Positions 2,276-63,062 of a stretch of 64,000 nt of DNA are shown here, piece after piece. The position numbers and the translations under genes are program-made. The notes below the pieces were generated by a model that had not been told where the DNA came from, made no database searches, and saw nothing but the letters and a program-made list of their open reading frames with translations. Numbering within the stretch: the first letter of the stretch is position 1; each line of letters opens with the position of its first letter. The DNA comes from Marchantia polymorpha subsp. ruderalis (lineage: Eukaryota; Streptophyta; Marchantiopsida; Marchantiales; Marchantiaceae): NCBI GenBank assembly GCA_037833965.1, contig AP031354.1, positions 10,580,001-10,644,000 on the forward strand, written 5' to 3'.

Positions 2276-2277
2276 TT

Positions 2278-35590: not shown

Positions 35591-37693
35591 TTCGGGGTCT
35601 CGATGAGGACAAGGTTTGCATAGTGCAATTATGGCGTCCACATTAACTCTGCTGTTAACTTCAATTTACAGTTGGGGTGCTGTTTCATCAAAGGAGCAAT
35701 GCACTTTAAAAGGTCCTCTTTTTTTTTTGTCTCTCTCTCTCTCATATTCATGTTTAACCATGCGTACCAAACAGTGGGATTATTGTGAACTTTTTGTATT
35801 AAAATGTTACCAAAGAGAACACTAATTTTAATTATATTTTGCGCACAAAGTGAGATGTGCACCGGTCTGAACTTTAATTCATGGAAGTGCACGTGTCTCA
35901 GCCAAACTATCACACACGGGATCGCTGTAACTTTCCAACCTAGTTTCTTGCACAAGTATTGTCTTCGACCCTTCATTAGCAAAATCATCAGCAAATATTC
36001 AAGCTCTCCATTGTTCTTTTATGGAGTTAACCGAAGCGATTGAGGCCATTACTCATGATATTATACACCTGATTTTTATATTCTCATTCTTAAAGGACTT
36101 ACTTTACAGCAGTTTTTTTGTTAGCAACATAATTGGACACAATTTGACTTAGAACTTAACGAATTTGAATGATATTTATATATCAAATACTCACTATATT
36201 TATTTACATAAATGAGATTGGATTTTTATTTTTTTGAGATTTATATGAATAGTTTACACAAATTTTGATCACAAAAACTACCCATGAAATAATTAAAATA
36301 TTTTTGACTGTTTAGGACCCCGAGGAATAGCTATGTAGAGATTTGACTTCTTTGCTTCTCTTAAAATGAAAGTATGAACATTTTGTGAAAGATTATCATA
36401 TTACATGGTGTATTATTCAATTTTTTACCTCTAAGCACTGTTTATTCAGACAACGGATACTAGTTAGTGTAATACTCTGTACTTTCGAATAATTATCCTC
36501 TAGATGTTCGCTTTGCATGTATGTAGATAGTTTGGATAGTTTGACATAGTAACACATCATTTCTACTGTGATGTCATCAGACCTAACACCATATTATCCA
36601 TTTTAATACGGTTATAATTACAGCTCTTAATGTACCCAATTTATACATCTTATATGAATTTGTTTTTCCATAGTGATGCCATTGATACGCAATTCTATGT
36701 TAGACCTTCGGGTTTATCCGTGTAAGACTCGATGAATTTTTTCATCTTCTGAAATTTTGTTTTAGATTTTTTCCGATTCACCTAAAAAAAAATTCACATG
36801 CTTCTCATATCAACATCAATAAAAGAAGATACTTATAGATTTTCCCAGAAAAGTATAATATTTTTGACGAGCCAACATATACACTTATAGCCAAGTATAT
36901 ATCACAATTGGTTTTTTTTTCACATCTATATAAATGTAGTTTCACATAATTTAATGATTATGAGTATGAGATTATAATATCCAGATAAAAGAAGAAAATG
37001 TAATTATTGAAATAATCGGACTTCACTAAATGATTTCAAACAGAAGATATAACAGGTTATTTTTTCGAAATTTTGAGCCAAATTATTATTTATTCATTTA
37101 TTTATATATTGGAACAAGCTCATCGTTGATTTTATGAACCTTGTGGAGGTTATTTCAATGTCTATATTTTTGTGATTTCATACTACACATTTGAACTACG
37201 GCTCAATATAACACAGAGACGTTCCGTTTAGATTTAACATTCAACTGAATCGAAAGATAGGGAAGCAGCATAAAGAGGTTGAAAATCTTAGGAAAATATT
37301 TAATGTACAGATAATATAACTTACTAAGAGAAAAATAACACCTATTTCAATTTATGCGATAGACACAATTTTTCAAGGTTGCTAACAACTAAATATATAA
37401 TTGCATTTGATTATTTTGATGCATGTCCCGTGTATTTAGAGTTCTGAAAATTAGATATGTAGAAATTAAAGCACACTTATATGTGAACTAAACATCAATT
37501 ATTAGCCAATAGACTTGGAAAGGAATCAGTACTCAAGCGTTTGATGAATTTTGGACATCGCAAAGCAAATAATATGGAGGAGTTCGTCGGGACAGATTCA
37601 GTCTATTAAAGGCTGAGCAATGAAAAGAATGAGAAAGGACTGAAATACATGCAATCGTTTATATGATTGGACTACATGGTATGACATTAAGAG

Positions 37694-42760: not shown

Positions 42761-42862
42761 TTAAGTAGATTGTTGATGATTGCTTCCCTCATATGCTTTT
42801 GGGCGTACCACATTTGCAATAATTGGAAAGCGAAAAATATCATACTGAGTTAACACTTTGAT
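42761..42862 (-). CDS. SPAG17: SPAG17 last exon with stop
   Basis: Acceptor TTGCCTGCAG, then IKVLTQYDIFRFPIIANV, matching animal IEIMTEHEVLFLPVEATV, a short tail and TAA at 42761-42763. A GTACGC just after IIANV could act as a donor to sequence near 42.7-42.5 kb instead; read-through to TAA is simpler. Confidence 0.8.
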   Translation of the reverse strand: MKVLTQYDIFRFPIIANVVRPKAYEGSNHQQST

Positions 42863-45800
42863 CTGCAGGCAAATGCAATTTTTGTCAGAAGGTGTGGAAT
42901 CCGTAACTTGTATGCAAAAAGCTTCTGCTCTTTTCTACAGGCAACAAATGAGTACTAACCTCGTGGTTAAAAGAACCGAGACGATCAGCGCGGAAAAATA
43001 CACGGAGAGTTCTGTATAGGCCGGGAGGAACCTGACATGAGATGTGAACAGTTTCATACTTCAGCGTCTTTTCCAAAATCTATCAATCGGCTACAATAAG
43101 TCGCTCAGAAAGTCGATGGACAACAGCAACAAAACAAAAGTGCAGCTTTTTTTTGTCCCTGCAAGATGGTCCTGCATGGACCATCTTGCAAGGACAGAAT
43201 GGAAATAGATCCAAATGCAGTACTTCGTATTCAACGACAATGTGACATACCATGCCATATTCACAGAGTATCCTGCAACATGGGCCAAGATCTTCAAACC
43301 TAAAGCGTCCACCATTCGTACCATGATAATTTTGTAAAAATGCCACCTATTCCCATGCCGGCAGAGCAATACCTAATGCTTGTTAGATATCTTTAAAATA
43401 AAATGCTATGTTTAGACATCTCTGAGAGCAATGGAGCAACTGTCATTCAGCCTACTGCTCTTACTAACATACATTGCCAAAGCTCAGTTCTACACTCCAA
43501 ACGGTTACTCGCAATGTCCGACTGAGCATCATGTTGGTGATGCTCATTTCTGCTAGCGATCCTCTATCTTATTAGCTCATATGGTTGCTCTTTGTTGTTC
43601 TTTCCAAAATGCACTGGCCTCTGTCCTCTGTCAACAATTTCGTATCCCCTTATTAAAGCTTTGGGAAACCTTGGACGCGAGACTGACGAGGTCAAGTGTC
43701 CTAGTTCAGAGTATAATACCTTCATTGATATAGTACCGTATTCGACGGTACCGAAATCTAGACGATCCGGTACTAGCAAAAACTGATGTGTCCAGTCTAT
43801 AGGGGGTCTTGCACGCAACTTCAGGCCAGCGACGGATGAAATATTCATTTGAAGCATTGTTTGCAGGTTCAAGCGCAAATATTTTTCATTTTTAAGCCAC
43901 TCAGCTTTGACCCAACTGCATGGACAAGAAAATTCCAAAGTGAATAGTCTTCGTCTCGCGTTCCGAACACCGTGAGTTTGTACATGTCTACTAGGGGTCG
44001 AGGAAGTGAGAAAGAGAAACGTCAATGAGCCAAGAATAGAAGCTTTTTCTAAGTTACTGCCCTGCATCCTTTGGTAATAACGAAAGAAGACTCTGAAAAT
44101 TAGCAGAAAATTACCCAGGTCGATTAGGCAGAAGCTCAAGCTGTCGCTGCACAGCCTCATGATTGATATCCCAATCGACTCCAACAGGAGCCTGCCAGAA
44201 AGGCGGTAGTTCTGGCAAAGCGGGTTCAGGCGGCGTTTCTTCAATTTCCCTCGCAATCTGGAAATCAAATCAATCCTCTATGTTAATCAAAGAATGAGCT
44301 TCATCAACTTGCGCACTGCAAAAGATGTTTCAGCCAACAAAGAAAATATAGAGGTAACAGAAGTCGACTCTTGAAAACTGTACAAAGGGGTATATGATCA
44401 AACGCTTGAAAGCTTGGGTACTACTAAGCGCTGATAGTACAAGGAGCTTCCTTTACAATTTACAGCTCTCCTGAAGACATGGCCAGCTTTGAAGATAGTT
44501 ATAAACCACCTCAAACCACAAAGGCGAACACGGTTCTCTGAAAAAAGAACTCGGCTACAATCGTGATAAGGCGAAACTGAAAACTGGAGGACTTAGTAAA
44601 CCATTACCTGCTGAGTCCAAAATCATAATTAGACATGACAGTGTAGATCAAAACTACTCCCTGTTGACAGACTGCACTAAGTCATTACTTTTCTGGGAAA
44701 TTGCAAGCCTGTACGCCCTTTCCAAGTGGAAGAACTGAGATGCAAAATTCACCCTTCTGAGAATTCCCCTTGTTCAACTGTCTAAACTCTGAATAAAGAC
44801 TGGACCAAAAGCTAAGCAAGATATTATTACTGTACAGCCTGCAATTCGTTGGTTCTTCATAAGTATCTTTGATCAGTCTACGCAGCTTGGTGCAAGAGTT
44901 TCTTAGTAAGCTGCCTAGTCTGCCTGAACCTTCCCTACAGCCTCTATCGCATCAAAAGTCTGCAGATTCTCGACTGAGGTTTTAGCTTTAGGAATCCGAA
45001 GATGGAAGATCAAGAAGGCCGTCATATGGTGCTAGGCAGACTATATCCTTGTTGTGAACTGGACAACTTGCAAGGGCAACGTAGAAAGAAAACCTTGAGC
45101 AGACAGGGCAGCCTGTGACAAATCCCTTCGGTTTCAAAATATTCAGGCTGTCTGTAATATCAAGAGGATTTTACCTCACTGTCGACGTTATCCCCTTCCG
45201 TATCTTCAGTCGGCGGGTCTGGATTGTTGAGATCACTGCTTACAGCCACATTCTCGTTAAAGTAAACAAACTAATTTGTCTCTGAGAATTATTCAACTCA
45301 TTAGGTCATTCATACAGGTAGATCACCAATAGAGCTGTATAGAGGCATCAAATCTGATGTCTCTAGGTTAAGTTTGTTAGGTAGCACACCATTTGTGCAC
45401 ATCCACAAGGAGAGAGGAAGAAGCCTTTTGATATGGCTGAGAAGTGCATGTTAGTTGGATATGATGATACTAATAAGCATTACAAGATTTATAACCCGTT
45501 GACTAAACAGCTGTTCGGCAAAGGAGATATAATCGGAATGTGAGATCTGATGGTAGAGCATCTAGATCAGGACTTTAAACCTTCTCGGGAACTTAGATTG
45601 TAGACTCCCAAGAAGGAGAAATTCCAATTGGAGGAGAATGCCCAACTGAGGAGCTCGATGAAGGAGAAGAAGTGAATTCTCGTAGTGAGCCCGGGTTTAT
45701 AAGAGTTGCACCCATCAAAGTTTACCAAAGAAGATCTCGACCTGCAGCTGAAGAAGTGAGAAGGTCAACCAGAGTGTCTAAGGTGTTAGACAGGTGTGAA

Positions 45801-48800
45801 GCAAATCTACTGGTGATGGCAAGTGTAACAGAAGATCCTGTTACATTTGAAGCGGTCAGATTCTGATTTAAATCTATACAGTTTCAGAACTCATGGGACG
45901 TAGATTATTGCAAACCTGTATGTTGATGATCTGCTCATCACATGGAAGAATCTCAACCTTCCCTATGATAAACTGAAATGAAAATTTAAATGGGAATTTG
46001 ATATAAGTAATTTGGGTCCAATGCAGTATGTTAGAATACTGTTATCCTCCCTATTACTTCTTGTCTATGCGGATTCGTGCAGTTAGTGTCTTCATAGTTA
46101 GGTCTGTGATGTGATGATGTGATGTGGACTGTGACTGTGATGTGACTGCGACCCACTATAGGGGTGTGTCGCTTTGTATCCCTTGTCACATCCGTTACAT
46201 CCCTTGTCCCGGATTGGGTATTCAAACCCAATCTGGGACCTGTGTTTTATCAACAACTCTTCTGTGGATCCTTCCTCAGAACTAAGGAACCTGTGTCGAT
46301 GCATTCACTTTTCTAATAAAGTACTTCTTGGTCCTCCAGATTCGGAATCAAGAGGACTGCATACTACTTACACGGCTTTAGTATGTAAGAAGATACTTAC
46401 AGACTTCCAGATATTAGATTGTAAGCGCATTTTATTCCTATGGAACCACACTTGGAGTCAAATCTGTCTAAGTATGCTATTCTATAAGCAATGAAGGGGG
46501 GTATTACGATGTTTGCTTGCAGTAACATCGCAATACCCCCCGTAACAGTAGATAGTTAGAATCCAGTGAACAAGCTGACCTCTTACATTAAGTAACATAA
46601 TTAGTGAGTTTATTAGGTTAGACTCATTTCTAATTAAGGTAAGCGCACCTTCCCAAGGCGAATGCCCACATGTGCAGTGTACGATTTATCCTCTGTAAAC
46701 CCCAGTAGTCATTCTGAACATTCTCTAACCCTGTTGCAATTATTTACTGCACCTTTGCAGTCCTCGTACTAGAGTGAAGCTTTCTATGACATTCCTATGT
46801 ACTCTGAGTGGCTAAATAGCTGTTTGTGCATATGCATGAGACAGGAATGAGAATATTGGTTCTGACCTGTGACTGTCATGATCATACGGTTGGTACTCAT
46901 CAACCTTAGGCTCAACGTCATTCTCATTCTGAATTTGGTCTGGTTCTGCTTTGCAAGTGCTCTGCAAATGATAACATGTAAACTGAACAGTTTGATATAG
47001 ATGCCCCAAATCTGCCACGTTTGCTATGTAACTAGTACAGTACTTGGAAACGGTCTTCTCTAGGTCACGGCTTGAATATAAACGAAACGCATCCACTGTG
47101 CATCAACTGGGGAAAACAGGGAACGGAACCGTACAGTTGAGGGCTGCGGTCAACTTCTAAGCTACAAAGAATGTTCCTAGTTGGTGTTTTTCTTTAACAC
47201 AAAGATACAGGTACCAAAGTTGAAAGACGAACCCCCATATCAAATCCAACCATGAAGCAAGGTGTCCAATCTGCTGGGCCAATCTCTGGCTTTGGCTTCT
47301 TTGCCTTCGGCGTTTCCCAACAAAGCTTTAATCCCTGTTCGAAATAAATGAAATCAGAATCTTGGAGTTTGACAAGGTTAAGTCAATCTAGACAACACTT
47401 CATTCCTCCACGAACATTGAGCCTGCATGCTGTCAAGTACAAATTAAACTGCTTTCTGAGTATGATCAATTCATTTCTCTCTTAAGTTGGTGAGTTTTCT
47501 ACCGAATGTGCCTACTGTAATATCTTGAAAACAGGATGAAGAAATATATCCAGCTCCTCAAAAAGGGCAAACCTAATGGCAGAATTAATCTGTTCGGCAT
47601 CTTGGTGATAATTGAAGGCCAGAACTTAGAAATCTAGATGTTCCTACTCTCTTTACTAACAGTAAAAGTAAACAAACCTCCTCCTCCAAATCTTTTTCTG
47701 CATCCACCTCGGTCGGCTTTGGCTCCTGTCAGGGTAAGGCAAAATCTTTATTACTTGTATCTTCGGCAAGAGCAACATGACTGGCTACATTTGTAGAACG
47801 AGTCTGACCTAGCATACACATTTTGCTAAATGGACCATCAGGAAACAGTCCAAGAAGAATGTGGAGATATATGTGACAATCATACTACTCTCCAAGGCAG
47901 GGTGTCAGATTTCAATGCAGTTTTGGAGCTTCCCTCCTTTTTACACATTAAACCAGTAGATCTTCCATGTGCAGCCAAGTTGGTAGTGGAAGATATGGCA
48001 TAAAATGGATCTGTACCTCCTTGTACCATTCTTCAAAGAGACATGTCTCGGGTTTGATTTCTCGATCATTCTTTTCCTCCGTAGGTGGTTTTCGAGCGGG
48101 AAAATCATAAGGATCCTGCGAGAAAGAAAAAACCAACGACACATAAGCCTTTTCATCTGAACATACATCAACATACTACTGAGAAAACGAGTGTTCTGGA
48201 GAATTCAGATACAGAACTTGTCAACATTTTCGAAACGACAAGAAATACACTCGAAAAACATGAAGGATGGGTTCCTTACATTTCCCTCGTCAGACACCTG
48301 AACTCCTTGTTGGCCAAATTCCAAACCCTGCTCTGATCTTGGAGGGGTCGTCTCCACAGACCACCTCCTTGGACCCGGTGGAGGTCTACGGTAAAACTGT
48401 ACATCGCACAAAGTGGAAAGCAACAGTCTTATTGCACTCAGCGTGGCATCAGAGAGCAAGGGCATACAACGACTGAAAGTCTCAACCCACAACATGCACG
48501 TCCTTGATCAAGATACAACCAAGGTTCCATCTATTCACGTTGTATCCACATTGTTCTAAGTCAAAGAATTCTATGAGATACTAAACCAATTATAACCTGA
48601 TCTACTTGTTAATCTCAAAGTCAGTTTCTTTCTGTATTCAGTAGTAAAATAAGTTTTAGCAGTAAAATAGTGCTCGTATATAGTCAAAGTTTGTTACGAA
48701 CTTTTACCATTGTTTACTCCTCATTTAGTTTAGGACTTACGATAGGTTTGGCAGCCATCAGCAGCATTAAGATTAGGTTTCCGAGTTAAGACCTCGTATT

Positions 48801-51800
48801 CAAATTTGAGCCATGAGTGATCGTTTCCAGTGATCATATTCTCACATCATATCTCTGAGACGTAATGTGAGAAAACGATCACTTCACATCTGCTGGTTTG
48901 TTGAGAAGTGGAGGTGTGGTTAACACTATATTTGAAATTTGAGTTGGTCAAAATTAAAGTGCGGTGAGTGCTATATACAAAAATCTAACCCTAGTGTTGC
49001 TGCTCATGACGCACTTGAGAATAAAGAGGAGTGCTAACAAGCTATGGCTAACCTAGGAGAGACAGTAGTGGCATAGTATACTTCTGGTGACATTTCTTGA
49101 AGACATCCTAATCAACTGCTGTAACAGAGTTCCTAACATCAAATAAGCAAGTCTAAGTCATGACACTGTTGACAACCAACAAAAGCACTTTGTAGAGAAT
49201 CTTACATTTTGTGTATACATGAACTCCAAGCCTTCTTCACATTTGAAGTACAATAAGGCCTGGTTGGGTTTAGGTCTGAAGGGTGGTTTATCCTGGAACA
49301 AATGCCAGACCTTATGCCTGCATGGTATTTGACCTTTTTTACTTTCTTTGTACAGAAGCCACTGTCTATTTGATTCATCCTGCACACTGCGCTTTAGCCT
49401 TTCAAATTCCTGCAGTGATTCTGCTTCCTTCTCCCTTATCTTTCCGAATAATTTTGCAGCATGCTCAATCTCGACTGCCGCACGCTCTCTCGCCTCTTGT
49501 AATTTTTGCTCTGCCACACCCTATACTTTACTCAATACTAGAAAGATAACCTTGCATGAAGTAGCAACATTCTCTGAACCAATTTGAATCACAAGGCCTC
49601 TGAATTCCAACAATCAAGAACAAAACTCGAATAAAGAGCAAGAACCCTCTTTAAGCTACAACCTATTAAAACCTTATACAATCCAATCTGAGTCTCACTA
49701 GTCCTTTCCATGTGGAATAGAGTTCAGTAACTAGTCATTCCGTATGTAAATTGACATTCCGTTCCAAAGCTTGAGCTATGCTTTGGAACGGAATGAAGAC
49801 ATTGAGTAGGAGGTATCTCTCGCTAAAACTCCAACTGGTAATAGTACACCATCTCGTCCAATGCACTGTATAGGAGTGCATTTTTAAATACAACTGAACA
49901 GTTGAACTGAAGACACAAAAGTTAAACAGAAGTTACCTCTCTGATTCTCTGTGCGATGTCTTCTGCTTTCTTCTTGTCTTGAGGTGTGCGTTCATCAGGT
50001 ATGACTTCAACGTCTCTAAGAATCATGGAAGAATCTTGCCATTCTTTATAAATCTCTAAAATTTTGTCCATTTTCCGAATTTGGGCATCCGTAAAGCGTG
50101 CATATTCAAAAACTTGACGGAACATTATGTTTGTTGTGTTGCAGAGGGGTAATACTGGAAGCAACTCTGGAACAACAGCCCTGGGTAAAAATGGCAGTTC
50201 CATATCAAGCTGAAGCCAATCACACTTACTACGCTTCTGCATTTTGGAGAGCACGGCCTTTAATTTTATCCGCCTAGCCAATTCAGGAATCTTCTTGGTC
50301 CACAATTTGAGTCCATCTGGAGCCCTGCAGCCCTCTTTCTTCTCCACCTCCAACTCTGATAGCTTTTTTGCTTTTTGTTCTACAGTTACAAAGGTGTGCA
50401 GCGCGACATCCACCGAAGCATAATCCTCCATAACTCTAGTGCATTCCTTCTTAAAGGTTTTTGAATATGCATATTTTTGAAAGTCATCCTCATGTACAAT
50501 TTCTAATCCAAACCCTCCCTCATGGATGACAAATAGCCTGGGATAAGGTCCTAAAAAGAGGTCATCTACAAACTCTGTGCCTCCATCGATGGACCTTGGC
50601 GAGCTAACCGTGCTCATGGACGATGGTCCGCAATCAGGAGGAGGAAGAAAAGAGTCTTCTTCATCGTTCTGGTTCTCTAAAGCAGATTTTAAATGCACCT
50701 CCTCTATAACTTCTGAACTTTCAGAAGGTGGCATCTTTATCTTGTCTGAATCAGATTTAATATCACTAATTGGTGCAGAAGCTTTGGAGCCAGTCTTAAC
50801 GGATGTTGCTTTGGAGTTTGGACCAGCCTTGATGGCTGGAGCTTTTGACTTAGTATCAGCCTTCGTACCTTTTCCTTTCGGTTTGGAACCAGCCTTGCCA
50901 ACTGCGGTTTTAGACGATCCCTCTGTAGTCTGATCGGTAAGGACCGCATCCTCCAAGGGGACCTCTGATGATTCGACTGGTTTGTCGATACCAACTGGTC
51001 CCTCAATCCCAGAACCCACAACAGCTTGCGGCGGTGGTTCAGGAAGCTTCCCGGCAATAATTAGGTCAACTTTGAATCCCCAACTTGTCCGGAATCCATT
51101 TCCAGCGTTGTCTGTAAAGGTAAGACATGCTTTTTCCTGCATTTTAATCATTTACAAGCATACCTCGTTGATCAGTATGACAGATGTAGAGCCTTCCTGA
51201 ATCTATATAAGAGAATGTAATGCATTTCTGTAGATCTTATTGAACAATTTTTATAAAAGTCAGGTGAGACTACTATTTGTTTTGGCCTCGTGGGATGCCT
51301 AAATAAAACAATGGTTGACTTTGTAAAGGTGCATCACATGTTGATCAAGATAGTATGCTCATCTCTTTATGATCATCTCTTTCATACTAAGAAGCAATCT
51401 TCTTCAGAGTTATCGGCAGAAGAGAAAGAAGAGCAATATGAAGGAATATGCTTACCAGATTGAACTCATACAGCCCATTCGTGTTGATGAAAGGAAAACC
51501 TGTACTTATCCGATCATGTGGCATTTGTTTGGGATCTGCTTTCTTCGCACCATCAGAAGGATCATAAATCACGATCTTTCCACTTGAGTAGAACATACTC
51601 CCATGGGGCATCAAAAGACTTAGCTGACCACTGTCTCTGGACCATGTAGCGCAATACTGACCTTCTGTTGTAGAGAACTCAACAGCAACTCCACCCTTTG
51701 TGTTTCCGTGTACGTTAGGAAATCCATCCTTTCTTACATGCCACTGTGCAACACACAATACCCGAGATTTATGATTTTCAACAACGTTTGAAACCGTGTC

Positions 51801-54800
51801 AAAATTCTCTCTGCCCAATGAAGGCCCAACACTACCAACTTCAGTGCGAGCATTTGGCTGTCCATTGGAACTGACAACTAGACCTTTCGTTTCAGATGGA
51901 TTCTTCAGTGACTTCGGGAGAGGTTCAGACTTGGAATCTTCACTACCATCTTTGGTCGGTTTAGTGTCTGTAGATAAAACGACCTTACTGCCAGCATTAG
52001 GAGCTAGGTCTGGTTTCAAAGGGCTTCCTACAGGTAGCTGCAATTTGTCTGCCTCAATGGTAGAACATCCTGGAATTTTCTTGCTCGAAAGCGTTGCAAG
52101 AGTTGCCAACGTAGCATTTGCATTGAAATTTTTTATTTCGTCAAGCATCTGCTGGCCAACACTAGGTCTGTAATCGGATGGTGTTACGTCGATCACTTCA
52201 CTGTAAATATGCGTTCCATCTGCGTGCTGGACAACCCGAACACTCTCATCTTCAGTTCTCACCACAACCACTAGATCCTCACGTGTCAATATCGAAGAAC
52301 CAGTATCAGGATCAAAAATCTCAATAACCTTTTTGCATGGCATTTCCACATGAGGTACCTCGACAACAAGAGAAGCACCTCCTACAGGAACATCTATGTT
52401 TCCGAGCAAGACCTCAGAATCAACCCCTTCGTTTGAACGAGGTGAGAATGATCCCTCTTGTGGACCATCCATCAATTCGGTTTCGCCTTTTCCTGTTTTC
52501 CCCTTTGAAGCTTTCTTCTTGTCTTTTTCCTTCCCGTCTGTCTTGCCTTTCTCTTTATCCTTTCCATCGTCCAGTACATCTTTCGCTTCCTTGTCCTTTC
52601 CTTTCTTACCTTTTCCTTTTGATTCTTTCCCATGTTTTTTCTTGTCTTCGGGGCTACTAGCTCCTCCTTCGACAGGTGGGACAGATTCCATCTTTAGAGG
52701 ATCAGTCTTTGGTTCAGGAAGCTGCGCAAAATCCAGGGAAAAACAATATATCAAATTCTCAACTTCATTTCACAAGAATGCAAACGAAATATAGCACACT
52801 CCCACTCGTGATTCTTCAACCGATAAATACGATGTTTATAACTGCCAGTTATTTCAAAGTTGGGATTAGTTTTAATCACTCGTCTAGTTTATGTCGATTT
52901 AAAAATATACTAATATGATCTTTGCTCTACTCAATAGACTGCGCAGTAAGTCGATTAAATTGACACTAAACCGTGTACGCGAGGATTGTCGCATACTTTG
53001 TAATCGCAAATGTCAAACCAATTCTGATGCTATTGAAATCACCTAGCCGCGCCTTATCTTCAAGGAGAGAAGACTATTACCGAGTGAAGAGGTCTCTCAA
53101 GGATTCCTCCCCATAAACGAGTTTGGTGTTCGAAGTGTAAGCCATACGACCCTCACTACATCATCCACCTGTAAGTTTTCTCGCCCCTAATGATTTGGTT
53201 CCAAATAGAAGCAGTTGTTGGGCTTTACGTCACAGCTAAAAATCTCCGAGTATGACACTGGTGCCACCAGCTGAGCGGGTCGTGGTATCATATCAATCTC
53301 ATTTTGTCAAATGTGCTACATGTAAGCAGATTATAGACGATGGATTCGTCCATTCGAAATACAATTTCAACTACCTCAGCCTTGTGACTAAGAACGTCAC
53401 ACCCTGTATATATTGCTTGAAGACCGCGGGTTCAAGCCATAATGTGGATAAGAGAACAAATTTTATATTCGTATTCTCCCTAATTTGTCTCTCTGGAAGA
53501 TCAGATAGAGCTTCTGTCTTAGTTTGAATTTTTCAGATCTCTATCTCTTCCCTACAAAGATCTGGTCCCGAGGGTAGCTTTGATCTAGTTTTCAGAGTCA
53601 GAGACCAAAAAATAGCGAGAAGAGTTCATTCATCTGATCATTACTCCTTCCTGCTTGAACCTGAAGATATCCTAGAATAGTTTGTCAAAGACGCTGCTAC
53701 ACATTCTTAAACAATGGTAACGACGGAAGTAGCACCTCAAGTTTGGATCAGAGTATGAAATTCATGGTGTAGCAAGTTCTTAAGTTATTCAGTAGTCAAC
53801 AGCAAAATAATTGATTACATAGCAGTTTACCTTCATTGCGGATAGGCCTTTGTTGTTGATAGTGCACCAGCCGTATGTTATTTCGGGTTTGATAGCAGAA
53901 GAAGATATATCTTCGGACGATGGTTTTTCCTCCACGCTGGTGCTACTGTCGATACCAGCTTTTTCACAAACGGCGGTATAATCGCTCACATTTCCATCAT
54001 TTAACAAAATCTGAAAGACGGACCAGCTAGAGCATAAATCAGGTCAGACGAGTGTCAAATATCTCTAGGTCTCTTTATTAGATAAGGGGAGAGCAGATGT
54101 TGTAAACCAGCTGGTGTGAAACAAACATTTTAAGACTCATCTATGTTGTGGTCGCAAGAAAGGAATACTCCTCGATCAAAGAGTACATAATTAACGTACT
54201 TTGAAGTAAAGAACAAAAAAGGGATGCCAAAAAACAGAAACTAGAGCAATAACGATTGAGAAACCGAGATAGATTTCCTGTGGGCTTGGTTTTTCTATCC
54301 TAAGTAGAAAATACATATGACATAGAAGGCCACCGCAAAAGACGCTCGCAGTATAACGCTAGAGTCTTATCTCTGAAATAAAGATACCCCACCCCAGAGG
54401 ACGGCATCATGTATGAGATCGCTTCTGGTCTTTATTTACTACAAATGACGGAATCCAAAGTAGGATCGATAAAAATTGAGAGCCACGCGAATGAACAGAA
54501 TTAACCAATTCTGACGCACGAATACAATCAGAAAGGCAGTACCATCCATGCATGAGGGAACAGAAAGCGTAGGATGGTCGACATAAAATTTCACACGCAC
54601 TCGTCAAACGTGGATAAGCCTAAAACGACAATTGGACATTCAGTGAATGAAATAAATATTCATTGACACAGGCAGAATGAGGCAAATGAACATGATGCAG
54701 GTTATGCACAAGTCCATGGACCTATCTGCAACATTAAGTGCGGTGACAAATTTACCTTGACAAACTCACGAGTGCATAAGTTCCAAACGTAGGCTTTCCG

Positions 54801-57800
54801 GAGATGCTAATGCTTACAAGTATAACAACGAGTGACAACTCATTAAAGAAAGGAGTCAAATAAGACACCAACTTTAGGAAGTAGAAACTCTCATGCATAG
54901 GGTTTTCCGCAGTGTGATCAAAATATACCTTCATTTCACCGTTTTCTTTGTAGGAAATAACGCTTCCGGTTGGTAGAATGCATCTTGATATCTCCTTCCC
55001 ACCTTGCTCTTCTTCATAAACTTTATTCAAAAACTGTAAGTCACTTGATAATTTCGTCTCCGTGTCTGACGTAAGCACATGCTGTGCTTTCACTTCCGGC
55101 TCAGGTTCTGACTCAGAAATGTCTGCGTCTTTTTGTCCTTTCTTCTTGGATTTCTTTCCCTTCTCCCCATCCTTTGAAGGTTTTTCAGCCTTGCTATCAC
55201 CTTTCTCTTTCTTTCCTTTTTTCTTTGCCGGTTTCTCCGTTTCCTTTGAAGATATTCCATCCTTGCCATCACCCTTCTTTTTCTTTGACTCCTCCCCTTT
55301 ATCCCCTTTCCGTGGACTTTTCTCAGCGCTGCCATCTCCCTTGCGCTCCTTATCTCCTCCCCTCGAAGGAGTCGATGGATCGGACGAAAGGACGTCGGGA
55401 GGCGTGGATGGAGCAGCAGTGTTTGAAGGTGGTTCATCTGCGACTTTATCTACAGGCAGAAATACAACCACTCCCGATGAAGTCAACTCAAATGTTCTAC
55501 CCGATGGATTGTTGACCTGAAGACTCAACGTTCCGTCTTTCGCAAAGAAGAAGCAGACAATGACACCATCGACCAGAGAGGCCATTACAGTTCTCTGCTT
55601 CTCTGATGATGAGTCGCCTGATGTGAAAACGGTGTCCTGTGCAGGTCCAACAACCGACGAAATACCTTCGCCCTCGCCTGGCACATTTTCTATTGTGGCT
55701 TTGTCATCCTGTTCCTTGTTTTTTCCTTTCTTCGACTTCTCCCCTTTCTTTCCTTCTTTCCCAGGTTTGACCTTCTCATCTTTTGTTGACCCTTTCTTGT
55801 CTTCTTTGCCAGGTTTTGGACTGGAATCGCGAGACCCCGCTTTGGACTTCTTAGATTTGACACCTTTCTCTTCTTCCTTCGGAACTGCGCCAGCATCTAC
55901 TGGTGATTTTTCATTTTTCTCCTCAAGCTTCTTCTCAACGAACTTTTCTGGTGCCCGCAGCGTCACAATAGTTCCATCCTTCAGACAAAAAGTGACAACT
56001 CCCTCGTGAATGCTTTGACCTGACTAAGCCAAGACTTGCATATGGTCTATCCAAATTGACCTATCGAAGTTGTGAAAACCTTGTCAAATGTCGATATGGC
56101 CAAGTGGGAGCAGGTTTTGAAGAAAACTTATGGAGAGTAACGAATGACTCTGCAGCGAACGTGTTCATACTGCTTGAAGATAGGGTAAATCCCGAAGAGA
56201 CCCGCGCCAAAGGGGTCTCCAAGAGTTGTGGTTTATGTGGACTATAAGAGGTGACAATTTCTGAATACTTTACGCTCCATTACGCTGTTCATACATTGTC
56301 GTGTTACAATATTAGCTAAACTGTTATCCGATTCAAACTATAAAATTATCTCCTTAGATATAGTGCATCAAGTACCTTGTATACAGTTGTTCTCGGCTCG
56401 TACTGAATAGGAGACATTGCTGGCAATCCACAGACAACAAGCCCACCGTCCTCAGTCAGTAGATAGCGCCTCCTATCCTTAATACATCTGAAGCGTGGCT
56501 CTATCTCATATGCCTCTCTTATTCTCTTGATAGGTCCGATGTTGCTGATATCTTCGAGGCAGAACTCGCCAAACGGTACCTATCACACAAAAAGGTGGTG
56601 TCAACCACTAGGAAGCAGCTATGGCCTGGACAGTAGGAACCTAGGAACAGTTTGCGGCACAACCTTTGTTTAGCTGACTGTTACCTCATAGGCTGTGGGT
56701 GTTGATGATCAACGTAGTTGTGAATCCTCAGTACAAAGGTTTGGGTTCAGAATAGAGCTCAAAAAAGTCTCCTTTCTTAAGACTTGAAAAAAGAGTTCTA
56801 AAGTCTTTATATTCTACTCCTTCGAAGCAATTTGAAGGTACTGACGATCAACACTAGGTAAGGACAGTTTAAAGAGCAACATCTATAAAGACGATTACGA
56901 AGGAGATATCGGGATACATGATACCCACATATACGGAAATGCTTTCTTCGAAGGTTCGCTCTCCATCTGCTGCGTAGAGAACCGTCAAGACGCAGTCTTC
57001 ATCTCTGTCATAGCGCAATATCTCAAATGGAAGATGAAGCTTGGCTCTTGCATAAACCTCTCCCATCAAACCATCTGCAAATCCTTCTGCATGCCTTCGA
57101 TCGATTATAGACTCGAGCAATCGTTCCTTTTTGCGTTCCCAAGCCGCTATCTTGGCAGCTATGATGGCCTGCTCTTTCTCTCTTGCAAGTCGCTCCATCT
57201 CCAGCCGCATCCTCTCTCCTTCTTCCCAAATTGCTTGGAGATCCGGAGGTGTTGGAACAGCAAAGATCCTTGCACAAATTGGACACCAAGTCTTCACTAC
57301 GTCTCCATCCAAACCCGGATCTGTATCATAGTGTCGTTCTGCATGCTCCAGCTCTTCAATTGTAGGAGAATCGTTTTGTGGATCTTGAACTTCTGGTCCG
57401 GATAAGTCATCTATAAGACCAATGGACATCTTCCTATCTAGACCAAACACATCCTGATCCAAAGCCAGAGACTTCTTCTTCTCCTGAATTACCTCAACAA
57501 TTGATCTCTTTCTCTCCAATATCGACCTTCTTTGACGAATGGATGGTTCTTCCGGGGGAGGAGACATCGGCCTCGGCATTTTGGCTCGCATAGCAGGTTG
57601 AGAAAATATCCGCTTGCAAACATCACACCAGTCCTTCATCATCTCAGGAGCTAAATCTGGTGGATCAATGAGCTCCACGGGTTTGGGTGGATCTGGCTCC
57701 TTTGCTGGTCCTTCAATTGGAACGTCCAGATCTGGCAGTAACAACTTGTCCTCCTTTACCATTTCAAAAAACGTGGTCTGCAAAGAGAAGCAGACAAACC

Positions 57801-60800
57801 TTGTTTGTTGCTTACAAGTATCCTACGTAGGCGGCAACTTCTCCAGCATCAAAATCTAGTATGAAAGAGTTCTCTCCTACAATCTCCTGTGAAAGTAAGA
57901 TTGTACTACCTACGTTAACAGTTTTGACTGTATACAAATTTATCTGAAGTAATCTCGGAGTCAAACCAGGAACAGAAACAGGAAAATGTGAATTGGATTA
58001 ACAGTGGGTTACAGAGAGTAAGCAACTAAATACTTTCTATAACTCAAAGTAAGTGCAAGAATGATATTATAGATCAAGGGATAATTACAAGTAAGAGAGT
58101 ATTTTATTTGATTACTATCCTTTTGGGTTACCTCGGTGGCTTACTAGTCACCAGCTACTGTTTATGTTTTCAGATTTGTGTGGCCGAGACCCAAAGCTGA
58201 ACCTGAAAGTTGTGTTTATATTGTTGTTAAGTTAGTAGAGCAATCAGGTAAGAGGTTACATCTTGCCGTTGATCACTACCTCAGCTCCTGATAACAACTG
58301 TGAGCTATTGCATTCCTGGATGTGCTGGTGGTGATAGCAATCCACTGAATTCGAGTTGGAATTTGGTTCAAGGTGGAAAGTGCTACATTGAGAGTTCTCA
58401 AATAAAAGAATCTACCTAAGGTTTAGATTGAGTGTAAAACAATTGTGGCAAGGGCAAGAGAGTCCACATGACTCTCCGCCTTTAACTTGCTTCAAGGTGG
58501 AGAGTGTTAGATTCTCTGAAGATGAGAATGTAGAAAGCTTAACTTGATTCGCCAGATTTGATACCAAAATTCGCTTGTTTCACAGTCATTGTGGCGTAGA
58601 CCATCCTTGACTATTGAGATAGAAGTTTTCCGACAATATTTACCAATTTCTTGTATCTTTGAAGGGTCTGCACCGAAACATCTGGACTTAGCGGGTTCGC
58701 TGCCATGTGCTCAGCACAATGGAAAATTGCTTCTTCGTCGCCAATAGCGAACCTAGGTTCCTCGTACTTTTCGCATAGGTCTTGTAATGCCGTGTGTGAT
58801 GCGCCCATCTTCTCTTCAGAATGCTCAGGCTTTGTCGGCATTTTCCTCCTTCCACGACCTGAAAGAAGGTAGTAACAGCATAATAGCTTCTAACAGGGAT
58901 TGTGGATTTTTCTATGTTCAGCAGAAAGGACCTTTGTTAAACTTTGTGATTCTGTAGGTAGCAGCTGATCCCATATTTGAGCCCAGTGCTATGATGTTTC
59001 CAAAAGCAAGAAATAAAGAGAAGTCTACATTTCTGTTGGGAAGTGTAAGAAATTCAAAGTGCAATCAATCAATAATTGAATTCATCTATTCACTGCAAGT
59101 TATTCAGGGAGTTACCTGGGGTAGCCCTGATTTTTGACAGGTGCCCCTCTACTTTCATCACGTCGACCGAATTCATAAATTGTGGCTTCTGTGGCTTCAA
59201 TTTCAGAAGTAGTCTTGTAACTGTGTCGAACTCATGAGTTACGTTCAAACGCTCATCTAAGTCCGCAGGTTTCAAATATGGATTATAAGGAATCTCTGGC
59301 GTCCCTGCTTTTCGCAATTCAATCTCATCGCCCATATCGACATGCTCGTGGTGGACTCCACATGTACCAGTGATAGCTGCATGGCTGGTGCACTCACCAC
59401 ATGTTGCAGATATATGCATGTCTTCAGAAAGTTTGAGACCTGAGGGATTCTCCCCATTCTCTGGTGGAAAGTTGATATCAGAAACAGAATGAATGTCTTC
59501 CTTCAGACTTGGGGAGGTTCCACCCTTTTTGGATTTCTTGCCACCACCAGCTTCTTCTTTGGCTGGTGATCCTCTTCCAGACTTTGGTTTGACAGCCTCA
59601 GCCTTAACGGAAGATTTTTCCTTCGAATCTTTGCCAGTGCCTTCACTCATGGTGCTAACATTATCTTTTGCCGTTTTCAGAGTTAAAACAACCTCTCCTT
59701 GGGTATCGGATTCTGGGGCGGGCAAGCCTTCAGAATTTTTTCCATTGGTCAAAGAATTAAGTTGATCGTTTGAGTTGAGGACCACTGACTGCGCTGCATC
59801 CTTCTGGGAAAAATTGTACAACATTTCAAAACGCTTGGCCAGATTGGAATCTACATCCCTATCAACGCCCATCCACTTTGGATGTCCAAGCTTCTTAAAA
59901 GCTTCGTCCATAGCAAGCAAAAATCGCCTATTCTCGTTGGCAACTTCAAGGGCTTTTATGTCCTCCAGAGGCCACGCATATGCTGCCACTTGCTCCACCA
60001 GACAGTGCACAATGATTGGCACAGAGACCAATCCGGGAGGAACTTCATTAATAAGCCGTTTGTAGTAACTGGTGTCAACTTCCTGCAATAACCTCCAGCA
60101 TTTCAGGACATCGAAGTAACGGGTATAACATAAGGAGAAGCGTATCACAAAGACGTTGAAAATTCAAATTCTCACACTAACAACACGACTCCTCCACAGC
60201 AGTGGCAGGGCCATTGTGCCTGGAATTGTGTGCTCCTTTCTACCCTTATTCACGATAACACGTATAGTCAGAGACGTTGAATACATCAGACCTCGAAAGG
60301 GACACCATACCTCGCAAGTCTTTAGTCCTTTTGACCCAAAAGCTGTCGGGACAGGGCGAAAAAGGGCGATGAGAGCTTTAGCTATACCCTATCTAGTGGA
60401 AGTTTGTGGACAAAGAGAGGTGTACATTAGTGTAATCCTATTCACTGAGTCCTTGCTCTGAAACGGTAGAGTGGGATTACCTCCAAGGGTTTAGCTGCTG
60501 GCACAGTGTATACCCTGGCAGTATCTCCTCCCATCTGGTTGTAGATTTCCACTTGAATAAGAAGACGCTGACAAGCGTCAATAACAGCCTGAGCTATTTC
60601 CTTATATGGTAAGGTATTGTCTCCTCCGACTTTTTTGCTTCCTCTCCTACTTTCCTTGCCTTTTTTCTCCTTCTGCTTTTCTCCTCCTTCATCCGACTTC
60701 TCCTCTGTTTCTCCCGTCTTCTTCTTCTTGTCTTTCTTCTCTTTTTTCTCCTTCTTTTTTTTTTCTTTTGGGTCCTCTTCACCTTCCTTGTCCATCTCCG

Positions 60801-63062
60801 GATTGCCTTTTTTCTCTTTCTTATCTTGCTTTACTGGATACCCCTGAGGTGGAAATTCTAGTTCCGGGGGAGGGGCTGGTTCATAGAAAACATCAAGTAC
60901 AGCCACTTTCCTAGCTGGATCCGTCAATGCGCAAGTCAGCTTCAAAGCTCTGATTTCAGAAACTAAAATAGGAATGGCTGCCACTGCTGCCTCGACTTTT
61001 GCCGCTTTCGCAGCAGCTTTTGCTTCTTTCTTGGCAGATTTTCTTTTCTTCTTCGAATCAGTTGACTTCGAAGAAGATGTTGAAGATGTTGATGCCACAC
61101 TCACGGCATCATCATCTCGTGGAGTTATGGGTCCCTCACTATCAGGTAGAATAAAAGGAACCTTAGGTTTCAAAGCCACGTTCAGAACACCACGAAAGAA
61201 ACTATTTCTCTCAGCGCAAAGTTCGGCGATCGGTAGGGCTGAATCTAACCCAAGGACACAATATACGCGTCCAGTGTTTAGCGGATCATTCAACCTTGAC
61301 TCAAGCTGTGCTTCATTGTCCAGACAAACTTCAACCTGCAAAGATTAACACTTTGAAGGTAACTAAGACTGTTCATTTGGAATAACAGATCGATATGATG
61401 GTACTGCATATAATGACCTGTTTCAGCCCGTACATGGATTAACAAGCAAACCCAAGCTGTACTCTTATTTCGTGCCTGCCATGGCCTGAAGAGAGTCAAA
61501 CTAAAACAAAGCAAGAAGTACCAACCAGAACAGCTAACTATCCATACTATGTCATTCACTATTTTGACTTCCTATAGCATGATTTGAGGATATAAACAAA
61601 CCTGAACCTCAGCCTCAAATACGGCATCTTTCGCCCTCGCAATGCCTTCCTCAAGCAACTTCCACTGTTCCTCAGGAGTCAAAAGAACCACAGGTGGTGG
61701 ATCTGATTCTTTATCTTTATCCTTCCCCTTTTTCCCCTTGCCTTTTTCTGATGGAAAAGTCCATTCCGTGAAATTAGGGCAAATGTCAGGCCTTCTTAAA
61801 GGTCAGAATAATATTTCATTTAATTTCTCTTGAAATGCATGTTTTGAAGTCTTAGTGTGCCGGTATCAACGAAAGCCAGATATATTGATGTGGTTATCGC
61901 CATATCGTTGGACCAGTAACACTATGTACGTAGACTGACTGGGGTACTCGATCTGAGAGCAGGTCAATATATATGTCGCTTTAACCTTAAATGGGTTACA
62001 TACTTCACATAAAAACAATACAAACACGCTTCAAAAGGTTCGTACCCAGCAGCATATACATTCACGCTCGACACTTTGCCTCTTCTACATAGACTCCGCA
62101 GTTATGGTGGTGGTGAACGTGTACTCAGTGAAAATTTTGCTAATGAAAAGCCCATACACTTTCTAGTTACCATTCATAGCCCGCTGATTTTGATCAGAAA
62201 CATTTAGGTGTCTGACATAACAAATGACAAAGGTCAGTACTGCTACAAAGCTTTCGGTGAGATAAAAATCTTAAAACGTTGTACTAACCCTTCTTATCTT
62301 TTTTGTCTTCTTTTTTCTCAATCTTATCTTCCTTCTTTTCATTCTCTTCCTTTTTCTCTTTCTTCGCTTTCTTGTCTTTTTTGTCTTTCTTTGACTTCTT
62401 CAGACTGTTAGAGGTGTCAGCTTCCTGCGCAGCCTCTGCTGCAGCTGCAGCTTCAGCTTCCTTGGCTGCTCGTGCAGCTAACCTTTTCGCTGTCACCTCC
62501 CGGATTCTGTCTTCTTTAAGTTTTGCTCTGTACTCCTTCAGCAAAGTTTCGGCAGCTTTCACTCCTTCTTGAGCAACAAGCACAGCTGCCCTCGCATCCT
62601 GCACCAGCACTTATGTTGACATCTGAAAACTGTGAAAGACTTTCTCCAGTAATTTACGTGATTCCCTAGCCAAATGGCTGGCATTCTTTATCCGGAAACC
62701 ATAACTATGAACAACCCATCAACGGCGCGGTGACCATTCCCACTTCACAGATCTCACAAATCTTCTATTCTCCACGGACGCGACTGACGACTTTCTGATC
62801 TTTTCCTTCAAAGCTTATACTAATTCAGGTGTCTCAACAAATAAATACTGCTAGTGTGGGAATACTGCCAAGAGGTTCTGCAGACGTTTGGAAAAGGGGC
62901 AGAACGCCTACTGCTTATCGATAACATGACAGGGGTTGAAATATCTGTAAGATGGTACGAAACTGTGGCTTACCTCGGTCGTCTTTTGTGCTTGAGACAC
63001 TTGGTTTGCTCGTCGTATCTCCTCCAAACGATGCTCATCATCGCGGTCCAGCACAGACCTTG
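42761..63062 (-). CDS. SPAG17: SPAG17/PF6 central-pair protein gene, 24 exons seen, 5' end outside window
   Basis: SPAG17 (Chlamydomonas PF6) is a scaffold of the C1a projection of the central microtubule pair and is needed for flagellar beating; in plants it would serve sperm. Conserved blocks appear in the animal order: a YYKRLIN...SVPIIVHCLVEQV block (exon 5), CxLPTGSVISYKENGEMK (exon 9), TREDLVVVVR...VVQHADGTHIY (exon 11), YPRLFVIHEGGFGLEI (exon 12), FLLVPDRLDFGTVEYG (exon 21) and a C-terminal domain (exons 22-24). Minus-strand exons from 5' to 3': 62974-63062, 62289-62598, 61602-61747, 60481-61335, 59116-60082, 58644-58858, 56935-57777, 56376-56579, 54929-56023, 53831-54010, 51456-52721, 49937-51136, 49206-49520, 48280-48396, 48017-48115, 47678-47725, 47251-47334, 46867-46961, 45175-45238, 44115-44257, 43720-43915, 43251-43346, 42960-43079, 42761-42862. 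All introns are GT-AG and every phase agrees, giving 2,948 codons. That is longer than the roughly 2,200-2,300 residues I recall for animal and algal forms. The first exon needs one more base of codon from upstream, so the start codon is not here. Confidence 0.9.
42960..43079 (-). CDS. SPAG17: SPAG17 exon 23
   Basis: 40 codons with VHISCQVPPGLYRTLRVFF, matching the animal GPVAAGMQTELNIELFA. It ends FNHE at a GTTAGT donor. Confidence 0.82.
43155..43195. repeat. Hairpin in a SPAG17 intron
   Basis: Arms of 18 bases (GTCCCTGCAAGATGGTCC and GGACCATCTTGCAAGGAC) with one mismatch and a five-base loop. It lies between exons 22 and 23. Confidence 0.8.
43251..43346 (-). CDS. SPAG17: SPAG17 exon 22
   Basis: 32 codons, VAFLQNYHGTNGGRFRFEDL to CEYGM, with a GTATGT donor. 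It fits the place of animal VKLKNVGVDFCRFKVKQP. Confidence 0.7.
43720..43915 (-). CDS. SPAG17: SPAG17 exon 21
   Basis: From the split Gly codon it reads WVKAEWLKNEKYLRLNLQ... and then FLLVPDRLDFGTVEYGTI. That matches the animal FHLLPSSVKFGVLKEGHTY, the start of the C-terminal domain, which has an Ig-like (ASH/MSP-type) look. Confidence 0.85.
44115..44257 (-). CDS. SPAG17: SPAG17 exon 20
   Basis: It encodes IAREIEETPPEPALPELPPF and then WDINHEAVQRQLELLPNRP. It ends in phase 2 at CCTGG|GTAATT. Confidence 0.75.
45175..45238 (-). CDS. SPAG17: SPAG17 exon 19
   Basis: It completes the split Ser codon and encodes SDLNNPDPPTEDTEGDNVDS, ending Glu at a GTAAAA donor. The phase-2 to phase-0 change fits both neighbours. 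Confidence 0.7.
45377..45945 (+). pseudogene. Ty1/copia polyprotein remnant (integrase end, linker, RT motif) in a SPAG17 intron
   Basis: In order on the plus strand there are four pieces. The first is LGSTPFVHIHKERG. After a frameshift comes KCMLVGYDDTNKHYKIYNP, the conserved end of copia integrase (FVGY...YRLYNP). Next is a linker with RRSTRVSK and EDPVTFEAV (45672-45866), typical of the copia integrase-RT junction. Last is YVDDLLIT (45919-45942), the RT catalytic motif, followed by a stop and a decayed DLG motif. Most of RT is deleted between 45866 and 45919. The element is dead and opposite in strand to the host gene. Confidence 0.8.
46496..46541. repeat. Inverted repeat ending in G6/C6, near the copia remnant
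   Basis: Arms GGGGGGTATTACGATGTT and AACATCGCAATACCCCCC, 18 bases with one mismatch and a loop of about 10 bases. The left arm follows AATGAAGGGGGG, which looks like a copia polypurine tract, so this may mark the start of a degenerate 3' LTR. Confidence 0.7.
46867..46961 (-). CDS. SPAG17: SPAG17 exon 18
   Basis: An acidic segment, STCKAEPDQIQNENDVEPK to DHDSH. It ends in phase 2 at CACAG|GTCAGA. The following intron (45239-46866) holds the copia remnant. Confidence 0.65.
47251..47334 (-). CDS. SPAG17: SPAG17 exon 17
   Basis: 28 codons, GLKLCWETPKAKKPKPEIGP to WTPCFM. The GTTGGA donor is weak, so the 3' boundary could lie further on, but this choice keeps phase 0 into the next exon. Confidence 0.6.
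47678..47725 (-). CDS. SPAG17: SPAG17 exon 16 (micro-exon)
   Basis: 16 codons, EPKPTEVDAEKDLEEE. Acceptor CCCTGACAG and a GTTTGT donor. Supported by phase and splice signals only. Confidence 0.65.
48017..48115 (-). CDS. SPAG17: SPAG17 exon 15
   Basis: 33 codons, DPYDFPARKPPTEEKNDRE to FEEWYKE. Acceptor TTTCTCGCAG and a GTACAG donor, phase 0 both ends. Confidence 0.75.
48280..48396 (-). CDS. SPAG17: SPAG17 exon 14
   Basis: 39 codons, FYRRPPPGPRRWSVETTPPR to VSDEGN, with a GTAAGG donor. Pro/Arg-rich, phase 0 both ends. Confidence 0.75.
48816..48893. repeat. Foldback in a SPAG17 intron
   Basis: Outer arms AGTGATCGTT and AACGATCACT plus inner arms TTCTCACAT and ATGTGAGAA pair in the right order, giving an imperfect 78-base stem-loop. 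It lies between exons 13 and 14. Confidence 0.65.
49206..49520 (-). CDS. SPAG17: SPAG17 exon 13
   Basis: 105 codons. A long charged helix (GVAEQKLQEARERAAVEIEH...) is followed by KPNQALLYFKCEEGLEFMYT. The donor is CAAAAT|GTAAGA, phase 0. Confidence 0.82.
49755..49795. repeat. Perfect 16-bp hairpin in a SPAG17 intron
   Basis: Arms CATTCCGTTCCAAAGC and GCTTTGGAACGGAATG are exact complements with a 9-base loop. It lies between exons 12 and 13. Confidence 0.9.
49937..51136 (-). CDS. SPAG17: SPAG17 exon 12
   Basis: 400 codons. It starts EKACLTFTDNAGNGF, like the animal CEVLDPEGNTFQV. It then has an Ala/Lys/Thr linker, the YPRLFVIHEGGFGLEIVHED block (animal VPRFFVMYADGSGMELLRD), and helices ending DKKKAEDIAQRIRE. 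Confidence 0.92.
51456..52721 (-). CDS. SPAG17: SPAG17 exon 11
   Basis: 422 codons. An N-terminal KGKGKKGKDKE linker is followed by VIEIFDPDTGSSILTREDL and VVQHADGTHIY, matching the animal [26 protein letters not shown] block. It ends with YCATWSRDSGQLSLLMPHGS and SGKIVIYDPSDG, matching CCATFGDGTTIIAKPQGTY. Confidence 0.92.
52722..53830. other. Long SPAG17 intron (10/11), possible old insertion
   Basis: At 1.1 kb this is one of the longer introns. It contains a plus-strand ORF at 53252-53527 without known domain and a TGGTATCA word at 53283-53290, the first eight bases of a copia primer binding site. No LTR ends were found around it. Confidence 0.3.
53831..54010 (-). CDS. SPAG17: SPAG17 exon 10
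   Basis: 60 codons, ILLNDGNVSDYTAV to TYGWCTINNKGLSAMK. It continues the animal ILFADGAVS and GTWFTTTPEGNRI segments. Phase 0 at both ends. Confidence 0.88.
54929..56023 (-). CDS. SPAG17: SPAG17 exon 9
   Basis: 365 codons. It starts SGQSIHEGVVTFCLKDGTIV and has two long Lys/Ser/Glu linkers around a short conserved block (TVMASLVDGVIVCFF...LSLQVNNPSG). It ends EISRCILPTGSVISYKENGE, matching the animal ASRVITSQGTVVKYMLDG block. Confidence 0.9.
56376..56579 (-). CDS. SPAG17: SPAG17 exon 8
   Basis: 68 codons, VPFGEFCLEDISNIGPIKR to YEPRTTVYK. The LLTEDGGLVVCGLPAMSP stretch resembles the animal YLYPSDGGQIEV region. It is phase 0 at both ends, with a GTACTT donor. Confidence 0.85.
56935..57777 (-). 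CDS. SPAG17: SPAG17 exon 7 with two W-C-x2-C motifs
   Basis: 281 codons starting TTFFEMVKEDKLLLPDL. It contains two copies of a WCx2CxRIF motif (DWCDVCKRIF at 57604-57633 and TWCPICARIF at 57262-57291), separated by a basic SIRQRRSILERKRS stretch and an acidic segment. A long Arg/Glu helix, probably coiled coil, follows. It ends in phase 0 at ATTTCC|GTATAT. Confidence 0.82.
58644..58858 (-). CDS. SPAG17: SPAG17 exon 6
   Basis: The split codon gives GRGRRKMPTKPEHSEEK, then a helical segment ending TLQRYKKL before a GTAAAT donor. I see no clear animal counterpart; the assignment rests on phase and splice signals. Confidence 0.75.
59116..60082 (-). CDS. SPAG17: SPAG17 exon 5 (most conserved N-terminal block)
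   Basis: It begins EVDTSYYKRLINEV and runs into SVPIIVHCLVEQV, which closely matches the animal SVPLILHCMLEQV block. A Ser/Lys-rich linker follows, then a Cys/His cluster (59340-59401; CGEC...C...HHEH) and a helical end. The donor is CCAG|GTAACT, phase 1. Confidence 0.9.
60481..61335 (-). CDS. SPAG17: SPAG17 exon 4
   Basis: 285 codons. It starts VEVCLDNEAQLESRL and includes VYCVLGLDSALPIAELCAER, probably the counterpart of the animal IIVVGF...MAELGIP block. A Ser run and a long Lys/Glu linker follow, then PYKEIAQAVIDACQRLL. It ends in phase 0 at a GTAATC donor. Confidence 0.85.
61602..61747 (-). CDS. SPAG17: SPAG17 exon 3
   Basis: It completes the split codon of exon 2 and finishes the Lys-rich linker (EKGKGKKGKDKDKE). 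It then encodes PPPVVLLTPEEQWKLLEEG, ending EAEVQ before a GTTTGT donor. Confidence 0.8.
62289..62598 (-). CDS. SPAG17: SPAG17 exon 2 (helix and Lys-rich linker)
   Basis: A helical segment (DARAAVLVAQEGVKAAETLL) leads to an Ala run and then a KKDKK/KKEEN-type Lys-Glu linker. It ends in phase 1 (AAG G|GTTAG). Confidence 0.8.
62974..63062 (-). CDS. SPAG17: SPAG17, first exon visible
   Basis: Acceptor TTGACAG and donor GTAAGC. It encodes RSVLDRDDEHRLEEIRRANQ and ends KTTE: a charged, probably helical segment. It begins in the middle of a codon, so at least one upstream exon exists. None was found with confidence up to 64000. Confidence 0.7.

Follow-up and report, generated by a model that had tools for sequence, protein, structure and literature searches.

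Which gene occupies the minus strand over the last third of this stretch of Marchantia polymorpha subsp. ruderalis DNA, and does it belong to the SPAG17/PF6 family of the flagellar central pair? The stretch analysed, which we call the window, is 64,000 nt long (C5:10580001-10644000), and the genome-wide searches reported below covered the assembly of 241.5 Mb in 9 contigs. Most of a land-plant SPAG17/PF6 gene sits in the window, on the minus strand. From sequence comparisons, we consider the locus, with a probability of roughly 0.93, to hold the SPAG17/PF6 orthologue in a land plant whose sperm are motile.

Conserved blocks and family assignment

Human SPAG17 (2,223 aa, checked against the mouse SPAG17 of PDB 9ijj, 3588 bits) was compared by tblastn with the window and 8 kb past its end. 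Four matches were obtained at E ≤ 5, all on the minus strand, and three of the four were collinear and followed the order of the family: residues 423-456 fell at 60082-59981 (E 2.6e-6), residues 1424-1458 at 52313-52206 (E 2.1e-4) and residues 1640-1678 at 50542-50423 (E 0.022). The fourth, with an E value of 1.4, was out of order and was taken as a chance match. As a control, reversed human SPAG17 was searched against the same target and gave four matches, the best of them at E 2.0. The first of the three blocks, at the start of exon 7, also matches Chlamydomonas PF6 aa 513-543 and mouse SPAG17 aa 423-457. A further block, SRxxxxxGxVxxY, spans the junction of exons 11 and 12 across the 54929/54010 intron and matches human aa 1281-1312.

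For a search of the PDB, conserved exon pieces were picked by eye and joined into a query of 394 residues. Mouse SPAG17 (E 4.6e-11) and Chlamydomonas PF6 (E 8.1e-11) headed the results, and the third and last match at E ≤ 10 had an E value of 0.049. In mouse SPAG17, four stretches were matched in the expected order; in PF6, four were again matched in order, and a fifth, weak match lay out of place. Because each stretch is weak by itself (best E values 0.0068 for mouse SPAG17 and 0.0009 for PF6), the strength of this search comes from several stretches together. Four PDB searches with other parts of the gene found neither SPAG17 nor PF6 at E ≤ 1; the two long queries among them contained neither exon 13 nor the C-terminus as finally spliced. 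No Pfam family scored above the cut-off in the exon frames tried; there were only sub-threshold matches, such as those to CCDC106, DUF3807, TMEM215, ThuA, Tad8 and DUF2769.

The last four exons splice into about 110 C-terminal residues that form one domain. We take this domain to be PapD/ASH-like; no Pfam model matched it. An earlier reading of it, five residues short, was used against the PDB and matched only PF6 (E 0.0017) and mouse SPAG17 (E 0.83) at E ≤ 10. In its final form, the domain scores 84 against its human counterpart, and 1000 shuffles reached at most 44. It aligns to PF6 over 97 residues and across three splice junctions, with exon 23 itself placed by homology. Since the coding scores of these exons by composition are poor (0.5, -3.9, -2.9 and -8.1), their support comes from homology and frame. 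Two other placements of exon 23 were rejected: there is no AG near 43329 that could serve as its acceptor, and a start at 43344 breaks the frame. The acceptor AG occupies 43347-43348, which puts the first base of the exon at 43346.

From exon 7 onward, conserved blocks and the PapD-like domain thus follow one another in family order on a single strand. A preliminary description of this DNA had proposed a plant SPAG17/PF6 gene with its blocks in the animal order on one strand. Strand and order agree with our tblastn search, and the family assignment is borne out in the PDB, where SPAG17/PF6 came out on top both for the selected conserved blocks and for the C-terminal domain.

Gene model and controls

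Our hand-checked model has 25 exons (Table 1) and GT-AG boundaries at 24 of 24 introns. It is 8,820 nt long, encodes 2,939 residues and contains a single stop codon, at its end. Inside the window lie 22 of the exons, amounting to 2,792 codons and 8,376 nt of the model.

Table 1. Exons of the SPAG17/PF6 gene model, in the order of transcription. Exons 1 to 3 lie past the end of the window and are numbered on the window's scale.
Exon	Position	Strand	Content and support
1 (likely first coding)	65738-65514	-	coding score 53.1 without favouring
2	64700-64536	-	outside window; from runs with upstream DNA
3	64329-64276	-	outside window; from runs with upstream DNA
4	62289..62598	-	Ala/Lys/Glu-rich; coding score and GT-AG; no homology shown
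5	61602..61747	-	ab initio model
6	60481..61335	-	N-terminal part, Lys/Glu linker; PF6/SPAG17 match not found in PDB
7	59116..60082	-	opens with EVDxxYY...SVPxIxHCxxEQV block; human aa 423-456, E 2.6e-6
8	58644..58858	-	ab initio model
9	56929..57777	-	central part, two WCxxCxRIF motifs; both ends shift in some loose runs
10 (provisional)	56376..56579	-	keeps the frame; splice sites good; negative coding score
11	54929..55978	-	Lys/Ser/Glu linker, then start of SRxxxxxGxVxxY block
12	53831..54010	-	remainder of SRxxxxxGxVxxY block
13	51500..52721	-	DPxTGxxxxTREDxVxVV block; human aa 1424-1458, E 2.1e-4; PF6 aa 1277-1382
14	49937..51111	-	PRxFVIxxxGxGxE block; human aa 1640-1678, E 0.022
15	49311..49520	-	ab initio model
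16	48017..48115	-	ab initio model
17	47678..47725	-	ab initio model
18	47233..47334	-	ab initio model
19 (boundaries provisional)	46905..46961	-	ab initio model
20 (boundaries provisional)	45175..45252	-	ab initio model
21	44115..44257	-	ab initio model
22	43720..43915	-	PapD-like domain begins (C-terminal)
23	43251..43346	-	PapD-like domain; homology-placed, GT-AG, weak acceptor score 0.8
24	42960..43031	-	PapD-like domain
25	42761..42862	-	PapD-like domain end and stop codon

When the intron penalty was varied, the ab initio exon-chain search returned between 15 and 43 exons and between 2,505 and 3,068 codons, stop included. Most large exons were identical in all runs; in some of the looser ones, exon 7 was split and the ends of exon 9 shifted. 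Without homology boosts, the minus strand scored 1098 (21 exons, 2,745 codons) and the plus strand 8. The score did not exceed 7 in 20 dinucleotide shuffles, so the chain is better than chance, although the control is partly circular in that exons of this same gene served to train the coding model. The preliminary description had drawn a chain of GT-AG exons that stays in frame throughout, and such a chain does exist; its exact count of 24 exons and 2,948 codons was not confirmed. The stop codon at 42761, where its range begins, is correct. An exon starting at 63062, where its range ends, is not supported: it appeared in one of four runs on the window, the loosest, and in none of the eight that included upstream DNA.

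The 5' end and the N-terminal region

The 5' end of the gene is outside the window, with the start codon likely to be about 1.7 kb past the window end. In the runs that included upstream DNA, the homology blocks and the Lys/Glu stretch of the first exon were favoured by hand. Only two of these eight runs started at the ATG at 65738, so we regard exon 1 as likely, but not certain, to be the first. The other six extended it to 65750 and added a small exon at 66390-66355. Farther upstream, at 71380-71970 on the window's scale (L001 7380-7970), the minus strand carries coding sequence for the C-terminal portion of a neutral ceramidase (matched by Ceramidse_alk_C, E 5.4e-57).

The N-terminal region bears on whether the model joins two genes, a Lys/Glu-rich one upstream (65738 to 60481) and a shorter SPAG17/PF6 that begins near 60082. 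The first firm homology is indeed the start of exon 7, and the tested parts of residues 1-585 are without similarity to SPAG17 or PF6: 298 residues chosen from this region retrieved neither from the PDB at E ≤ 10 (two unrelated matches at 0.57), and for three N-terminal stretches compared with human SPAG17, 143, 748 and 58 of 1000 shuffles scored at least as high. However, the splice sites between exons 6 and 7 are good and the reading frame continues across the junction without a stop, and about 420-510 residues likewise precede the first shared block, the YY block, in mouse SPAG17 and in PF6. Exon 1 also opens Lys/Glu-rich like human SPAG17, a weak resemblance. We therefore consider two joined genes improbable and treat the model as a single SPAG17/PF6 gene.

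Copy number and genomic surroundings

Blocks of human SPAG17 searched genome-wide at E ≤ 10 gave three matches, two of them in this gene (E 0.0041 and 0.0078); the third (E 1.34) is interrupted by stops. Plant exons 14-15 matched only themselves at E ≤ 0.001. With these two kinds of query, no second SPAG17 copy was found in the genome. This matters for the reading of the locus as a decayed pseudogene copy of SPAG17, to which the high divergence from animal and algal forms might seem to point. Besides the failure of those queries to find another copy, 2,939 open codons with a single terminal stop, GT-AG boundaries at every intron and the coding score of 1098 against at most 7 in shuffles (partly circular, as noted above) all speak against decay, and we judge a pseudogene highly improbable.

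Genes of land-plant families are present in the same assembly. There were 14 NAC-domain matches at nine places and four AUX/IAA-family matches, three at one place on contig C7 and one on C9; the same searches gave matches in 0 of 14 control genomes.

Several features of the surrounding DNA were recorded in passing. The minus strand at 15326-17479 carries an open frame of 718 residues with a protein kinase domain (Pkinase, E 5.3e-62), which presumably resembles a plant MAP3K. Sharply AT-rich patches (GC 21-31%) lie at 2501-5000 and 36001-37500 amid about 50% GC; compared with the window by BLAST, the region 1501-4500 matched only itself at E ≤ 1e-5. Near 42000, just before the SPAG17 gene, a GC content of about 55% gives way to one of about 42%, and it remains low as far as the end of the window. 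On contig C1, a pattern match recurs over the first 111 kb with four of five steps at about 17.3 kb, and a 5S rRNA lies within the contig's first 10 kb. Of the 20 kb examined there, half is N. In bryophytes, 5S is linked to the rDNA, and the start of contig C1 is possibly rDNA with linked 5S.

Charged linkers and exon 9

A large protein with charged or low-complexity linkers is a trait of the SPAG17/PF6 family, and the model has it. Defining a charged-linker stretch as at least 60% K/E/S/D/G, we count 874 of 2,939 residues in such stretches, compared with 352 of 2,223 in human SPAG17; outside them, the model has 2,065 residues and the human protein 1,871. Charged linker thus makes up 522 of the 716 extra residues relative to human, much as the preliminary description had supposed in ascribing the extra length mostly to it. 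Linkers of this kind do produce spurious scores, and we encountered several such matches, but it is hardly credible that a Lys/Glu-rich protein should resemble SPAG17 by chance when the matching blocks are collinear, are not of low complexity and place SPAG17 and PF6 ahead of all else.

Exon 9, in the central part, contains two WCxxCxRIF motifs, 114 residues apart, and matched nothing in the PDB at E ≤ 10 or in Pfam at E ≤ 0.1. Its single-sequence structure prediction was poor (mean pLDDT 53.6, pTM 0.25). The score of the end of exon 9 plus exon 10 against human SPAG17 was reached by 27 of 1000 shuffles; for the sequence that follows the last conserved block, the figure was 225 of 1000. With a further CGEC motif in exon 7, the model has three CxxC motifs, possibly candidate metal-binding additions. 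We read the long charged linkers and the central part with its two WCxxC motifs either as additions specific to this lineage or as fast-drifting regions that surround a conserved core.

Flagellar partners and proposed role in sperm

Other genes of the flagellar apparatus were found in the same genome. Radial_spoke matched with an E value of 2.6e-110, and Radial_spoke_3 had four matches, three of them over the cut-off (E 3.1e-15). CLAMP, which we take to be the C1a-32 / C1a subunit family, matched at E 3.2e-8. There were also three matches to Dpy-30, a family that is not specific to flagella. Through CLAMP, Dpy-30, Radial_spoke_3 and Radial_spoke, the C1a projection and the radial spokes are both represented. 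CFAP54_N was not found genome-wide in a search that is blind to introns and in which no control matched. According to passages of PMC7455551, central-pair proteins are missing from non-flagellate species. Together with the radial-spoke and C1a-family genes, this lends support to the idea, already voiced in the preliminary description, that the locus marks a lineage with swimming sperm.

The roles of PF6/SPAG17 in the C1a projection are described in parts of PMC12297659 and PMC7999657. Passages of the latter report that PF6 is essential for C1a and motility in Chlamydomonas and that SPAG17 binds SPAG6 through its C-terminal part. By analogy with Chlamydomonas and mouse, the plant protein would be a large structural subunit without which the C1a projection of the central pair is not assembled; its partners there would include SPAG6/PF16, DPY30 and calmodulin-bearing proteins. 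The projection would in turn tune dynein activity and beat, and the protein would be expected mainly in developing sperm. Because detectable similarity runs from exon 7 onward and includes the C-terminal domain, we infer that the protein most likely acts in the C1a projection of the sperm flagellum. The role may nevertheless differ between lineages, since most axonemes looked normal in sperm of Spag17-knock-out mice, in which the defect was one of sperm formation (PMC7999657, in the passages on the mouse). On the whole, the gene is a fresh member of a long-known family, and its biology is ordinary.

Reported absences of PF6

Parts of PMC7455551 report PF6 as absent in Prasinoderma coloniale and state that it is lacking, too, from centric diatom and Chara braunii spermatozoids, suggesting a link to short-lived flagellate cells. 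A related survey used reciprocal BLAST with a cut-off of e-5, as stated in a figure legend of PMC7027972. Flagellar genes across land plants were likewise surveyed by reciprocal BLAST in PMC9023351, whose main text does not name PF6. With E values computed for 10 million residues of search space, the best single match of our gene was 2.9e-4 to PF6, for which PF6 segments were used, and 5.9e-4 to human SPAG17. Both values fall short of e-5, so screens by reciprocal BLAST could miss the gene, and false absence of PF6 in published surveys is possible on these sequence scores. The divergence of the plant SPAG17/PF6 therefore weakens published calls of PF6 as absent.

Bryophyte sperm are also short-lived. 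That PF6 is kept in a land plant with such sperm argues against the proposed link to short-lived cells. More broadly, land-plant PF6 may have drifted beyond a few short blocks and gained the two-WCxxC part, and so have been scored as absent by standard reciprocal BLAST; published losses in lineages with short-lived sperm, such as Chara, would then be partly failures of detection, and PF6 would be kept wherever the 9+2 sperm flagellum is kept. We put this forward tentatively, at somewhat under even odds. For checking the PF6 losses that have been reported, the locus is of moderate use. The gene would also be a clean target for studying C1a function in plant sperm, because damage to the flagellum is expected to leave the vegetative plant unharmed (a general statement in a portion of PMC5424408). 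In the open-licence literature, we found no paper pairing SPAG17/PF6 with Marchantia, liverwort, Physcomitrella or land plants, which does not imply that the gene is unpublished.

Comparison with known PF6 and SPAG17

Chlamydomonas PF6 (PDB 7n6g and 7sqc; 2,301 aa) has the YY, TRED and PR-FVI blocks and the PapD-like domain in the same order as the Marchantia model. It is about 640 residues shorter, and neither plant exon 9 nor the N-terminal pieces used as queries had a detected match in it. Human SPAG17 has fewer charged-linker residues than the plant model and no CxxC motif, whereas the plant model has three. Passages of PMC7999657 describe PF6 and SPAG17 as similar to each other mainly in the C-terminal part. 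Four collinear blocks and the PapD-like domain are common to mammalian SPAG17 (mouse, PDB 9ijj, 2,320 aa; human, 2,223 aa) and the plant protein.
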